In this document: positions 278 to 5,151 of the stretch, in pieces
Numbering within the stretch: position 1 is the first letter of the stretch
Layout: each line of letters begins with the position of its first letter
From: Laspinema olomoucense D3b
GTDB lineage: Bacteria > Cyanobacteriota > Cyanobacteriia > Cyanobacteriales > Laspinemataceae
Direction of reading: 5' to 3'
Assembly (NCBI RefSeq): GCF_025370785.1
Contig: NZ_JAMXFA010000022.1
Coordinates: 53,636-117,635, forward strand
Length of the DNA stretch: 64,000 nucleotides
Notes under the pieces: model-generated
What the model saw: only the letters and a program-made list of their open reading frames with translations
Told to the model about the DNA's origin: nothing
Database searches by the model: none
Program-made: the position numbers and the translations under genes

Positions 278-553
278 ATGCTAGTCTTAGTAGTTTACGA
301 TATCCCCGATGATCGTCGGCGTCTCAAACTCTCCACCTGTTTAGAAGGCTACGGACGACGGGTCCAAAAATCTGTATTTGAATGCTTTCTCAGCTTAGAA
401 GAAATGCAAAAACTACACCAAAAATTGCAGCGATTGGTTAAACCCACAGAGGATAATATCCGCCTGTATTGGATCAGCGAAAACGCCTTTTCCAAAACCC
501 TAACCATCGGCAGTGAATTCCCCCAACCGCCCCCGAGTTTCTACATTATCTAG
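278..553 (+). CDS. cas2: CRISPR-associated endoribonuclease Cas2
   Basis: A 91-residue protein of normal Cas2 length. It begins MLVLVVYDIPDDRRR, matching the Cas2 first beta strand with the metal-binding Asp (Asp8 in VYDI), followed by a ferredoxin-like fold and the RVQKSVFECFL segment typical of the second strand and helix. In the family Cas2 is the dimeric scaffold of the Cas1-Cas2 spacer integrase, and the catalytic Asp is not needed for integration. It is transcribed towards the array 350 bp downstream. cas1 normally lies directly upstream and must be outside the window. The intrinsic terminator 40 bp after the stop suggests cas2 ends its operon. Confidence 0.95.
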   Translation: MLVLVVYDIPDDRRRLKLSTCLEGYGRRVQKSVFECFLSLEEMQKLHQKLQRLVKPTEDNIRLYWISENAFSKTLTIGSEFPQPPPSFYII

Positions 554-622: not shown

Positions 623-900
623 GTTGCACCCTTCCACTGGCAATGCTATGCTTCCAGTAGGGAAGAACACCTTTCCAAAATAAACAGCGGATTTGTAAAG
701 TTTTATAAATCCGCAGAGGTCAGCCAAACCTCGAAACCCGCATTTTGTCGTTGACCTCTGCGGATCGAGGGCAGAATCAGGGGTCCGGGTCATGAATCTG
801 GGGCTTATTCGCAATAAGTTCCAACTTGTTGACAGGTTAAGACCCCCTCTGCGGATTTGGTCCTTGAAACCCTCTCTCCGTCAGGCTTCCTGGCAGAGGA
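623..900 (+). promoter_or_regulatory. CRISPR leader
   Basis: This 278-bp non-coding stretch lies between the cas2 terminator and the first repeat. It carries a perfect 14-bp inverted repeat, atccgcagaggtca (709-722) with tgacctctgcggat (752-765), around a 29-nt loop. The core ctctgcggat appears a third time at about 846-855, and gcggatttgt also lies at about 687. A TTGACA hexamer at 829-834 could be a -35 element, but no good -10 follows. The leader side is assigned because the degenerate repeat is at the other end of the array. Confidence 0.7.
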
Positions 901-3375
901 CTTACCGATTAGTTAAAATCGGACTTGTTGGAAACTTTAATGGCAAAGTTTTCGAGCGAAATTTGAGTGCCTAAAACTTACCGATTAGTTAAAATCGGAC
1001 TTGTTGGAAACTTTTGAGTTATGGACATTGGATTTGTTTCCTCGCTACTTACCGATTAGTTAAAATCGGACTTGTTGGAAACAATTATAACCATTAAAAC
1101 TAAAGTCAAGCATCCAAGACTTACCGATTAGTTAAAATCGGACTTGTTGGAAACTATCATGCCCGTTCCCCATCTCGAAAGATAGGTTTGAGACCTTACC
1201 GATTAGTTAAAATCGGACTTGTTGGAAACTCAACGCCTCGGGCTTTCAATAAAAGTTCTTCACAGTCCTTACCGATTAGTTAAAATCGGACTTGTTGGAA
1301 ACTGGGCGGTAACAGCGGCGGCGGTTGCCAGAACGAATCCACCTTACCGATTAGTTAAAATCGGACTTGTTGGAAACCAATTAGAACTTCCATCTCTTTC
1401 TCCAATAACTACAAATGTCAGCTTACCGATTAGTTAAAATCGGACTTGTTGGAAACAACTACTTAACAGCAGACATACACCATGCAGTTGAGTACTCCTT
1501 ACCGATTAGTTAAAATCGGACTTGTTGGAAACTTGATAGGATTGGTAGTAACTGTTGTATTCCTGATGCTTACCGATTAGTTAAAATCGGACTTGTTGGA
1601 AACAATTATCAACGACATATCGGAAACACCATCCGCATTGTAATCCTTACCGATTAGTTAAAATCGGACTTGTTGGAAACCTTTGTAGTTAGACATTGAT
1701 TTTCCTCAGAGATAATGAGTCTTACCGATTAGTTAAAATCGGACTTGTTGGAAACATTCATGGAAGGCTCGAACTCGGTTGACAAGTTAAGCGTGTACTT
1801 ACCGATTAGTTAAAATCGGACTTGTTGGAAACCAACTTAGGATTTTTGGCGGCGGCTGCGGCGGGAACCAGGGCTTACCGATTAGTTAAAATCGGACTTG
1901 TTGGAAACTTTACACGGACGGCTCCGTCGATGACTTCTCCGTCTTTTTTTCTTACCGATTAGTTAAAATCGGACTTGTTGGAAACCTGGGTGGACCGATC
2001 CTAAGAATTCATCATTCAGATAAATCTTACCGATTAGTTAAAATCGGACTTGTTGGAAACTCCTGGTAACCAAATTGCCACCAATCTCCGCCGCATTGTG
2101 CGGCAACACTTACCGATTAGTTAAAATCGGACTTGTTGGAAACATTTCTTGCGAAAAACTGGGAGAAGCGAAACCGAAAAGAGCGGAACTTACCGATTAG
2201 TTAAAATCGGACTTGTTGGAAACCCTTTCGTTCTCCATAAGGAGCTTTCAGGGAGAATTGTGCATCCTCTTACCGATTAGTTAAAATCGGACTTGTTGGA
2301 AACACGATATATGGACCTAACGATATGTAGACTTAAGACCAGATAGCCTTACCGATTAGTTAAAATCGGACTTGTTGGAAACCTTCTAAGGCGTACTGAA
2401 AGTCTTTTCCATTTAGTTCAATATGCTCCTTACCGATTAGTTAAAATCGGACTTGTTGGAAACTCCCTGAGTCATAGGTTCCACTTTCAAGGTATAGAAA
2501 CTCTTACCGATTAGTTAAAATCGGACTTGTTGGAAACTGGATTTCATTTGATTTCCTCAGAGAAGGTTAACAATCAGTCATCCTTACCGATTAGTTAAAA
2601 TCGGACTTGTTGGAAACAAGGACTTGCCTTTCTTCACGTTGTTGGCTGCACCTGAGATGCTTACCGATTAGTTAAAATCGGACTTGTTGGAAACCTTAAC
2701 AAATAGTCTGAAAGATTGTCCGTCTGCCGTGTGAACTTACCGATTAGTTAAAATCGGACTTGTTGGAAACTCATTAGTCGTCACTTTCTTGCCAGTAATG
2801 ACATCGTTAGTGACTTACCGATTAGTTAAAATCGGACTTGTTGGAAACCTGTGAAGAGAGAAGGGCTATTTTATATTCTTAAACCCGCTTACCGATTAGT
2901 TAAAATCGGACTTGTTGGAAACTTCGTATTCTTTCACCCAACCTAGGATTTTTTCATCGGCTTACCGATTAGTTAAAATCGGACTTGTTGGAAACCCTCA
3001 TGTGTTAAGTGCTCGCCGACCATCGTAATAATGGAGGGAACTTACCGATTAGTTAAAATCGGACTTGTTGGAAACTTTTGAGCAGCGGCGAAAGGTACCA
3101 AGGTTGCGAAGTCTTACCGATTAGTTAAAATCGGACTTGTTGGAAACAGTTGAGGTCTGATAGGTAGGTCAGAGTTAGTACTTACTGCTTCTTACCGATT
3201 AGTTAAAATCGGACTTGTTGGAAACTTGAGTGACACTTTCAACGAAAGTGTATTCTTCGCCGGTCTTACCGATTAGTTAAAATCGGACTTGTTGGAAACG
3301 CCATTGTTGACATCATCAACTTATGGCATAGAGCTCGGTCCTTACCAATTAGTTAAAATCGGAATCGTTGGAAAC
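901..3375 (+). CRISPR. CRISPR array, 33 repeats and 32 spacers
   Basis: The 35-nt repeat starts CTTACCGATTAG and ends GACTTGTTGGAAAC. Repeats 1-32 appear identical. Repeat 33 (3341-3375) has three substitutions: G7A, C24A and T26C. The repeat can fold as a 6-bp hairpin, CCGATT/AATCGG, with a 6-nt loop. Spacers run from 36 to 48 nt, a wide range more typical of type III than type I. Terminal degeneracy and the leader place transcription left to right, giving crRNAs a 5' handle TTGGAAAC. No effector (Cas10, Cas7, Cas5, Cas6) is in the window. Adjacent Csx3 genes argue for a type III partner. None of the 32 spacers matches anything I noticed elsewhere in the window. Confidence 0.97.
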
Positions 3376-3588: not shown

Positions 3589-4479
3589 TCACATCGCAAG
3601 CAACCTCATCACCGCAGATAACAACGCATCCGGTATCCGGGCAGATTCCCCTCGCATCCAAGGCCCTGCAATGATTTCTAAAAACGGTTCCGTTTGCAGG
3701 ACCTCCACCCGGTCCTCCAACACACTATGAATCACCGCCACCGGAGTCAACTTCCCCTGCACTTGACAGAAATCGTGCCATTGGGCCAGGGCCTCCGGGT
3801 CGCTGGTAATAATCAAATAGTGAGTACAGCGATGGAGCACCATCACATCCCGAGGTTTGGGTTTCCCGCCAAAATCCACCAGCACCAAATCCATCGCCTC
3901 GCGAATATGACCCACTGCCTCCGCATGATGCTGGAAAAAGCGCTCAGACCAGCCTGCTTTATGCTGTTGGCGCAAACTATCCACCAAAGCGCGATCCTTC
4001 GCTTCAATGGCCCAATTCCCCTCCCCATCCCACTGCGCCCGATGCAGGTGGATGCGCCGGTTTGGGTTGGCCCCTCGCAACCCCCGAACCAAAGCGTAAG
4101 ACAGCACACTCTTCCCACTATTGGGCGGCCCCCCGATAAACAAAGCCGGTCCAGGAGGGCGACTCGGGACCAAGCGAAACGACTCCGCTGCCGCCAACTC
4201 CGGAATCCGACTCGCCACCACCACTACCGAACCCAACTGCAAATCGTAGCATCCCACCCAAGGCGCTGAGTCACACCGTTGCACCAGATGACTCGTCAAC
4301 CAAATCGGGGCCGCCCCCCACAAAATGATACCTTTGGAAAAATCCAGTTCCCGGGGCAAAGTGAGAGAACCCAGCAATTCCGGTTCAATCTTCCCCGAAG
4401 TGGCAATTTCCAAACATTGATACAACTCCCCATCACGCGCCTGCAACGGGTTCACGGTCAACTGTACTATCCCACTCAT
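3589..4479 (-). CDS. Csx3-NTPase fusion with a degenerate Csx3 domain
   Basis: A 296-residue protein. Residues 1-100 are a Csx3 (AF1864-family) domain, recognisable by PIWLTSHLVQR and WVGCYDLQLGSVVVVAS. Residues 110-296 form a P-loop NTPase with Walker A IGGPPNSGKS (Lys123) and a Walker B-like LVLVDFGG. Csx3 proteins degrade the cyclic tetra-adenylate made by type III complexes, and Csx3-AAA fusions are known in cyanobacteria. Aligned with the neighbouring stand-alone Csx3, only the conserved Asp (Asp79) remains. The His, Arg and second His positions read Asp70, Gln81 and Arg91. The Csx3 half is therefore probably a non-catalytic nucleotide-binding or assembly module (inference). Its start overlaps the csx3 stop by ATGA, so the two genes are translationally coupled. 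Confidence 0.85.
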   Translation of the reverse strand: MSGIVQLTVNPLQARDGELYQCLEIATSGKIEPELLGSLTLPRELDFSKGIILWGAAPIWLTSHLVQRCDSAPWVGCYDLQLGSVVVVASRIPELAAAESFRLVPSRPPGPALFIGGPPNSGKSVLSYALVRGLRGANPNRRIHLHRAQWDGEGNWAIEAKDRALVDSLRQQHKAGWSERFFQHHAEAVGHIREAMDLVLVDFGGKPKPRDVMVLHRCTHYLIITSDPEALAQWHDFCQVQGKLTPVAVIHSVLEDRVEVLQTEPFLEIIAGPWMRGESARIPDALLSAVMRLLAM

Positions 4480-4802
4480 GCCGGTAACTCCAACGGCAGC
4501 ACCGAACCTACCCCCACCCCGCGAGTGTGAGTTGCCACCACCACCGCCCCGTTCAAACGCGGGTCATAACAACCCACCCAGGCAGTCGCATGGGCCTCAT
4601 GGGTCAGATAGGCATAGACCCAAATTGGAGATTTCCCCTCAAACACCACCCCTTGAGACCCATCCAGAGGCGGCAGTTCCAGGGATTTCAGGTCATCGGG
4701 CTCCACAATCCCATCCTCGCTGATAATCTCAATGCGGATATGTTGATACCCCATCCCATCCCGGGTGTGATGGGGAATAACAGTCAAGGCAATGGGTTTC
4801 AT
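4476..4802 (-). CDS. csx3: Csx3, cyclic oligoadenylate ring nuclease
   Basis: A 108-residue stand-alone Csx3 of usual family length. Landmarks are GVVFEGKSPIWVYAYLTH, WVGCYDPRLNGAVVVATH, and His71, Asp80, Arg82 and His92. As I recall the archaeal enzyme, the catalytic set is His, Asp, Arg and His at similar spacing (Asp+2 Arg; Asp-9 His), and all four are present here. Known role: tetramers sandwich and cleave cA4, switching off type III CRISPR signalling. The start is preceded by AGAGGTG. Upstream, gcacctcta occurs twice, 33 bp apart (4809-4817 and 4842-4850), a possible operator. It is the first gene of a two-gene operon with the Csx3-NTPase fusion and converges on the array. Confidence 0.88.
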   Translation of the reverse strand: MKPIALTVIPHHTRDGMGYQHIRIEIISEDGIVEPDDLKSLELPPLDGSQGVVFEGKSPIWVYAYLTHEAHATAWVGCYDPRLNGAVVVATHTRGVGVGSVLPLELPA

Positions 4803-5151
4803 GGTATTGCACCTCTATAGAATCACTGGAGATATGATATAGCACCTCTAGTGTACCCGGTGTTATCGACACATCCAGCCAAATACCAACCCTGCGCCAT
4901 AGCCAAAGATGTGCGACACTCCCTGACGCCACTGGAGGAGGAGTCCCAGGAGGCAGAGCCTCCAATTTGGCATTCCCAGGCAGAGCCAGGGAACGAGGAA
5001 AATTGTCTTAAGCCCCCCTTTCTAAGGGGGGTTGGGGGGATCAATCCGGAATGAAAGCAAGCGGTATATTTTTTATAAAAATCCTTAATTAACCCCCTAA
5101 TAAAACCCCGATTTGTTGTATAATAAAACTCGTAAAAATTAATCATCTCTC
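4803..5151. other. Divergent intergenic region with repeat debris
   Basis: This 349-bp region lies between csx3 and the divergent Rpn-like gene. It holds the gcacctcta direct repeats next to csx3, a cagagcctccaa/ggcattcccaggcagagcc segment at about 4950-5000 related to the palindromic element at 59260-59400, and a copy of the aagccccccttt/aaggggggttgggggg palindrome at about 5010-5045. TATAAT at 5119-5124 is a good -10 for the gene starting at 5152. ORFs crossing this stretch are repeat-derived and not credible. Confidence 0.6.

Follow-up and report, generated by a model that had tools for sequence, protein, structure and literature searches.

Two adjoining csx3 genes of a cyanobacterial type III-B CRISPR locus encode an intact Csx3/Crn3 protein and a fusion of a P-loop domain with a Csx3 domain deprived of most of its catalytic residues, and this arrangement is conserved: 40 such pairs were scored (22 in one Csx3 family, 18 in a second), with H60 (AfCsx3 numbering is used throughout for conserved positions) lost in 39 of the 40 fusions. 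The sequences suggest a two-part off-switch of the CRISPR alarm signal that would operate in dozens of cyanobacteria and is undescribed in the literature searched; in titles, abstract beginnings and passages, as far as these were available, no description of paired intact and degenerate Csx3 proteins was found. In the preferred reading the two genes would encode a two-subunit Crn3 module, composed of a cA4-holding NTPase subunit and a cutting subunit, to which a probability of slightly under one half (about 0.48) is assigned. The pair is located in the window, i.e., the whole 64,000-nucleotide stretch of DNA analysed here. Published papers are cited from excerpts of their text.

The csx3 pair and its CRISPR locus

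The window starts directly after a run of N, inside the type III-B locus. Upstream of it the same contig carries Cmr6, Cmr5, Cmr4, Cmr3 and Cmr2/Cas10, the last with its GGDD at residue 358, together with a regulator of the WYL type, whose homologues carry the TIGR03985 annotation, and RT-Cas1. Within the window the csx3 pair lies on the strand opposite to cas2 and the CRISPR array (Table 1). Two 125-bp tandem copies, 90% alike, occupy positions 1-250, and a related 52-bp copy (5002-5053) lies upstream of the csx3 genes at a distance of approximately 200 bp. Contig C19 of the genome encodes a third Csx3 (PF09620), a fusion of 302 aa whose active site is intact; its neighbours are a CARF-RelE protein and a second Cas10, which has GGDD at 482.

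Table 1. Positions in the window of the csx3 pair, its parts and the neighbouring CRISPR elements
Feature	Position	Strand	Basis
cas2 of the csx3-pair locus	278..553	+	PADLOC Cas2 models
CRISPR array (~33 repeats), flanked by cas2 and the csx3 pair	889..3375	+	limits approximate, end judged by eye
Standalone Csx3/Crn3, 108 aa	4476..4802	-	PF09620, TIGR02579, AfCsx3 alignment; H68, H71, D80, R82, H92 intact
Stretch with catalytic residues of standalone Csx3 (H68-H92 = AfCsx3 H57-H80)	4527..4601	-	AfCsx3 alignment; residue roles from excerpts of PMC7371418
Fusion of degenerate Csx3 domain and P-loop domain, 296 aa	3589..4479	-	PF09620, TIGR02579; AlphaFold2 model
Degenerate Csx3 domain of the fusion, residues 1-105	4165..4479	-	
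Replaced catalytic positions of the fusion: Q67, D70, D79 (kept), Q81, R91	4207..4281	-	AfCsx3 alignment
C-terminal P-loop domain of the fusion, residues 107-296, SIMIBI-like fold	3592..4161	-	
Walker A GGPPNSGKS, fusion residues 116-124	4108..4134	-	
Walker-B-like LVLVDFGG, fusion residues 198-205	3865..3888	-	alignment of 37 fusions
ATGA overlap of the standalone and fusion genes	4476..4479	-	+ strand reads TCAT

The first-pass annotation of this DNA described an ATGA overlap between two Csx3 genes, a 108-residue Csx3 that keeps His71, Asp80, Arg82 and His92, and a P-loop, GGPPNSGKS, in the fusion; the overlap and the P-loop were found again at the positions of Table 1, and the four residues were confirmed by alignment to AfCsx3. 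Both proteins are recognised by the family models, the standalone with 117.7 and the fusion with 77.1 bits for PF09620 (cut-off 21) and with 84.1 and 58.5 bits, respectively, for TIGR02579 (cut-off 55.4). All five catalytic positions of AfCsx3, H57/H60/D69/R71/H80, are kept in the standalone, as H68/H71/D80/R82/H92, and correspond in the fusion to Q67/D70/D79/Q81/R91, so that only D69 is kept there. The same annotation had the fusion losing three of four residues; its four positions were correct, yet the fifth, H57, is lost as well, and consequently 4/5 conserved positions are gone in this fusion. In the cA4 pocket R46 is replaced by A56 and S44 by W54. The fusion has the Csx3 fold, and its AlphaFold2 model (296 aa) reached a pLDDT of 91.3 and a pTM of 0.87. 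By family models and active site the standalone would be an intact Csx3/Crn3 ring nuclease, expected to perform Mn-dependent cA4 cleavage, and the fusion is a Csx3 homologue that, judged by its active site, is no Crn3 ring nuclease.

The fused P-loop domain

In the model the fused domain resembles MinD, ParA and dethiobiotin synthetase (DTBS); it shows the fold that these have in common with CTPS, the class named SIMIBI, NTP hydrolysis being putative. Pfam AAA models remained below their cut-offs against the fusion of the window (AAA_18, 14.5 bits with a cut-off of 29.4; AAA_16, 12.8 bits with a cut-off of 32.6), and no AAA+ chain was seen among the best 50 rows of a fold comparison, which by itself can exclude no family. 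As to the remodelling NTPase proposed earlier, the modelled MinD/ParA-like fold does not point to an AAA+ machine. That Csx3-AAA fusions were already known, as the annotation said, is correct: one paper calls the fusion Csx3' (excerpts of PMC7371418), the fused domain is labelled AAA (Csx3' or Crn3-AAA), and the role of the cyanobacterial Crn3 P-loop fusion is termed unknown (excerpts of PMC7371418 and PMC12409355).

Conservation of the pair in family 1

PF09620 matched in 48 of 386 genomes sampled from the phylum and in 140 of 388 sampled from the order, the two samples overlapping. Loci were fetched and scored on a single alignment; pair counts are lower bounds, and listed strong single fusions and lone standalones were fetched in part. 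Duplicates of one place (L002, L003, L007, L013, L035, L037, L038, L039, L063 and L124) were removed before counting. A standalone lies directly upstream of a fusion in at least 22 family-1 loci, distributed over 10 cyanobacterial families (f1, f2, f4, f5, f7, f11, f14, f29, f43 and f58). One of them, L071 (G473), was placed by the gap rule among the 52 unpaired fusions and recounted as the 22nd pair, since its standalone is directly upstream. Plasmid pMIC7113.03 of Allocoleopsis franciscana PCC 7113 carries one of the 22 pairs, with crn3 annotation on both genes; this pair (L124) is situated a few kb from annotations of a TnsA-type endonuclease, an ATP-binding protein and TniQ, cf. Tn7-like elements.

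The paired standalones are all intact, with E-G-[KR] and HHDRH in 22/22, and the paired fusions have lost H57 and H60 in 22/22. Among the 51 fetched family-1 fusions without upstream partner, which include L084 and L085 with a standalone downstream, H60 is kept in 50 and lost in one, L100 (Fisher p 9e-18 for paired versus unpaired, from hand-entered counts and with descent ignored); L170 (G494), one more intact unpaired fusion, stands outside the 51. The degenerate family-1 domains, i.e., those of the 22 fusions and two domains of double proteins, form one clade in the tree (support 99/98), which implies one ancient event kept through deep divergence. As the 22 pairs are thus of single origin, the p values overstate independence. 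When fusions of both families are taken together and doubles excluded, 39 of the 43 scored fusions without H60 have an intact Csx3 gene directly upstream. The 44 E-type standalones comprise 22 that are unpaired, 19 of them without an adjoining fusion in the fetched stretch.

It was considered that a histidine-biased model might overlook unpaired degenerate fusions. This ascertainment bias was ruled out with a profile of the P-loop domain only, run on those 388 genomes: every one of its 58 full-length hits of family 1 (>=190 bits) was already among the PF09620 matches listed (by-eye comparison), so that no unpaired full-length degenerate fusions were missed in these genomes. Six partial P-loop places lie outside the 58 (G603, G483, G532, G473, G423 and G518); G603 is a truncated P-loop piece without Csx3 domain, and that of G532 runs off the contig.

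The neighbourhood of the pair is also recurrent. With queries from the genome of the window, 17 of the other 21 pair loci of family 1 showed the WYL regulator within the stretch fetched, in 15 of them divergent to the csx3 genes. A gene of type III or RT-Cas1 turned up at 10 of the 21 (11 with the annotated plasmid pMIC7113.03). These counts may run low, as truncation at contig ends and sequence divergence would hide some genes. The regulator accompanies 8/8 family-2 pairs in one set of 20 regions. A WYL/TIGR03985-type regulator near the pairs of both families may control the pair.

A second family and other arrangements

The second, distant Csx3 family was reached through weak PF09620 matches; from H57 to H60 its sequences are longer by one residue. 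In 8 of the first 20 regions a standalone and then a fusion were present, and 20 regions picked by the P-loop domain yielded 10 pairs, nine lone fusions and one unscorable locus (L165, excluded from the counts, its fusion being broken or doubled). In these 18 pairs the standalone is intact in 18/18 and the fusion lacks H60 in 17/18; in L166 both members are intact. The 17 fusions without H60 have all kept D69 and K71, with H57 lost in 12 and H80 in 13. Lone family-2 fusions have lost H60 in 3 of 9 (L160, L161 and L163), which gives a Fisher p of 0.0017 for paired versus lone, again from hand-entered counts and with descent ignored. Families 1 and 2 split at 100/100 in the tree, each set of degenerate fusions being nested in its own family, which implies two or more losses of the H60 face. 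The intact/inactive pair pointed out in the first-pass annotation is therefore real, as it is conserved in 22 family-1 and 18 family-2 pairs; it goes beyond coincidence or the decay of a single locus, and lack of conservation, one of the outcomes by which the annotation would have been refuted, did not occur.

Other arrangements were seen as well. L061 has adjoining intact and degenerate Csx3 genes and no P-loop domain; L055, L056, L057, L119, L120 and L121 are single chains of two unlike Csx3 domains followed by the P-loop domain. In two family-1 double proteins, L053 (G008) and L083 (G628), both Csx3 domains are degenerate and joined to a P-loop domain (model of L053, 458 aa: pLDDT 84.9, pTM 0.85). 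No other Csx3 was found among the PF09620 matches listed for these two genomes, so cleavage is not always needed, and these may be systems in which it was dropped altogether. L084 (G550) and L085 (G459) have an H60-keeping fusion and then an intact standalone, with no loss in either protein. A csx3 fusion gene of Leptolyngbya sp. PCC 6406 (L050) is seemingly interrupted between its Csx3 and P-loop parts by a frame of 338 aa that may encode a transposase.

Fusions that have lost H60 and have no adjoining partner are L100, the three lone family-2 fusions and a fusion of plasmid pSYSA of Synechocystis 6803. L100 (G646:C95) has the site DQEPN, no upstream partner and a Cas10 beside it; a family-2 pair, L145, is on the same contig, approximately 14 kb off. 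The pSYSA fusion (record 75157-76089; L167:5641-6573), presumably slr7080 as judged from context, has Q, P, D, K and R at the five positions (by-eye scoring against family 2), and the record annotates no Csx3 adjoining it. The absence of H57, H60 and H80 makes its label as putative ring nuclease doubtful and illustrates that the name Csx3 need not mean a ring nuclease.

Direction of residue loss

In AfCsx3 two successive dimers build the active site together, one with its D69 face and the other with its H60 face; the H60A and D69A variants are each inactive and their mixture is active, and the cA4 contacts are mostly on the D69 face, several to many of them main-chain (excerpts of PMC7371418). 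D69 is kept in 31 of the 39 paired fusions without H60 (family 1, 14/22; family 2, 17/17), and none of the 76 family-1 fusion domains scored has lost D69 (to a residue other than E) with H60 kept. Since Crn3 cleaves cA4 between the D69 and H60 faces, the fusions mostly keep the cA4-binding half-site and lose the catalytic half. This direction of loss, with H60 gone and D69 mostly kept, goes beyond the earlier annotation.

Other positions of the pocket are less uniform. In family 1 R71 is kept in 10/21 paired fusions, the cA4-contacting glycine G45 in 21/21, and position 44 is aromatic in 20/21 degenerate domains, E in 21/21 partners, and S, D, T or N in fusions without upstream partner; E44 is no mark of pairing, as the 22 unpaired E-type standalones show. 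In the subclade of the window erosion has reached the D69 face as well; the fusion of the window keeps D69 itself but has Q for R71, A for R46 and W for S44, which weakens the half-site reading for this protein.

Selection and maintenance

Pairwise dN/dS in eight comparisons (three within one trio) was 0.10-0.38 for the degenerate domain and 0.06-0.10 for the partner, and on these ratios the degenerate Csx3 domain is under purifying selection. In 37 aligned fusions Walker A SGKS and an RAxWDG motif are invariant, and D202, G204 and G205 of the Walker-B-like motif are found in at least 90%. The reading of the fusion as a pseudogene was ruled out by dN/dS and by the conservation of the P-loop. 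Distances of partners and degenerate domains correlate (Mantel r 0.73, 18 pairs, near copies L067, L068, L075 and L081 excluded), with species history still included, as expected of genes inherited together; the mean distance is 0.59 for the degenerate domain versus 0.35 for the partners. Decay was nevertheless seen in two genomes, in G423 with the standalone kept and the fusion gene largely lost, and in G473 (L071) with the fusion gene split.

Proposed mechanism and alternatives

In the two-subunit module, the standalone, with both half-sites kept, would be expected to cleave cA4. The fusion would be a specialised non-cleaving Csx3, which lost the H60 face but preserved its fold (most relatives have preserved the D69 face too) and carries a P-loop NTPase-like domain. 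It would bind cA4 made by the type III complex, either through its D69 side or as part of a mixed dimer, and the cA4-loaded state would set the P-loop domain as an active effector or in an assembly state. Docking of the H60 face of the standalone on the same cA4 would then lead to cleavage and reset the module. The sequences show the pairing, its conservation and recurrence, the direction of loss, the selection, the type III context of the window and the chains of two Csx3 domains with a P-loop domain; cA4 binding by the fusion, its contact or mixed assembly with the standalone, and the NTP coupling are inferred. Counted against the module are the unpaired fusions without H60, L166, L084/L085, L061, L053/L083 and the 22 unpaired E-type standalones. 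A more specific version is offered tentatively: a heteromeric ring nuclease gated by NTP and with its half-sites divided between the subunits, in which the fusion would be D69-face holder and NTPase timer, the small subunit the H60 cutter, and the split would have evolved at least twice in cyanobacteria.

The main rival differs from the module only in whether the proteins touch. The fusion might be a P-loop effector or regulator that, like Cat1, is activated by cA4 and does not cleave it, with the standalone as its dedicated off-switch; the two proteins would have cA4 in common and never assemble. The sequence relation between the degenerate domain and the sensor of Cat1, a protein with no detectable ring nuclease activity (excerpts of PMC12162218), agrees with this, as do the unpaired fusions without H60 and the frequency of loci with a ring nuclease and a cA4 effector (211/536; excerpts of PMC12409355). 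However, 39 of 43 fusions without H60 stand directly behind an intact Csx3, not behind another ring nuclease or none, two Csx3 domains recur with the same P-loop domain in one chain, and the partner and degenerate-domain distances correlate (species history included), so that separate action is possible but somewhat doubtful. Still less probable is a cA4-blind degenerate domain that serves only for dimerisation or docking and thereby holds the P-loop domain on the active Csx3. It would suit the subclade of the window, where S44, R46, R71 and three histidines are replaced and the fold residues G55, P58 and W60 kept, and also L053 and L083 with both domains degenerate, but it leaves unexplained why D69 and K71 persist in 17/17 paired family-2 fusions without H60 and G45 in 21/21 in family 1, many AfCsx3-cA4 contacts being main-chain (excerpts of PMC7371418).

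Two further readings carry little weight. Substituted positions are often polar or charged, which would suit a fusion that is an active ring nuclease by means of other catalytic residues; this is very improbable, as H60A alone abolishes AfCsx3 activity (excerpts of PMC7371418) and no common substitute is found at H57, H60 or H80. Ordinary duplication with one copy in decay would account for the faster evolution of the degenerate domain and for the broken copies in G423 and G473, yet the P-loop is intact in 10 families, dN/dS is well below 1 and the loss recurs in family 2; decay is largely contradicted by the purifying selection that these ratios indicate, and hardly deserves credit. With one face lost in the fused subunit, the pair makes the role of the P-loop fusion directly testable.

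Comparison with known systems

In the literature Crn3 was reported in 37 loci, and more than one ring nuclease in only 10 of 242 ring-nuclease loci (excerpts of PMC12409355). Csx15 resembles the pair in that its family has cleaving and non-cleaving (sponge) ring nuclease members and in head-to-tail stacking; it differs in belonging to another branch of the CARF superfamily, and neither tandem pair nor P-loop domain was seen in the excerpts of PMC13148439.

Cat1, the CRISPR-associated TIR effector, is another of the closest systems. A profile of 17 degenerate domains found the Cat1 sensor (PDB 9mud) with an E-value of 0.0014, and one of 37 fusions (21 degenerate, 16 not) with 2e-4, versus 0.69 for 12 intact standalones; the narrower partner profile (12 rows, 65% mean column identity, against 17 rows and 50% for the degenerate one) may explain part of this gap. 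The matched stretches of Cat1 and fusions are equal in length (60/60 and 53/53), with five AfCsx3 entries ranking above Cat1. If these stretches are read without gaps, W215 of Cat1 meets the invariant W60, while the H60 position is matched by the cap residue K225 and the D69 position by N234. The region of Cat1 akin to degenerate Csx3 spans residues 202-261. Cat1 holds cA4 between stacked dimers, with ring nuclease activity not detectable, and the word Csx3 is absent from the available main text of that paper (excerpts of PMC12162218). By analogy, Cat1 is a precedent for a Csx3-like domain that has both catalytic positions changed and still senses cA4, and the link suggests a route from a cA4-cleaving to a cA4-sensing domain. 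What the two share is a non-cleaving sensor related in sequence to the degenerate Csx3 domain; what separates them is the effector, a TIR NADase in Cat1 and a P-loop fold in the fusion, from which a Cat1-type TIR domain is absent, and the paired ring nuclease, of which none was seen for Cat1 in the excerpts of PMC12162218.

With Crn3/Csx3 of the AfCsx3 type (PDB 6yud, 3wzi, 6vjg) the pair shares fold and family, and the standalone keeps the five catalytic positions, whereas the fusion of the window is without H57, H60, R71 and H80 and is joined to a P-loop domain; the excerpts consulted describe no dedicated pair of an intact and an inactive member. The cyanobacterial Csx3' or Crn3-AAA fusions (excerpts of PMC7371418 and PMC12409355) have the same domain order and a homologous P-loop domain. 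They differ in that 50 of 51 family-1 fusions without upstream partner keep H60, while in the pairs described here cleavage is proposed to be left to a separate subunit.
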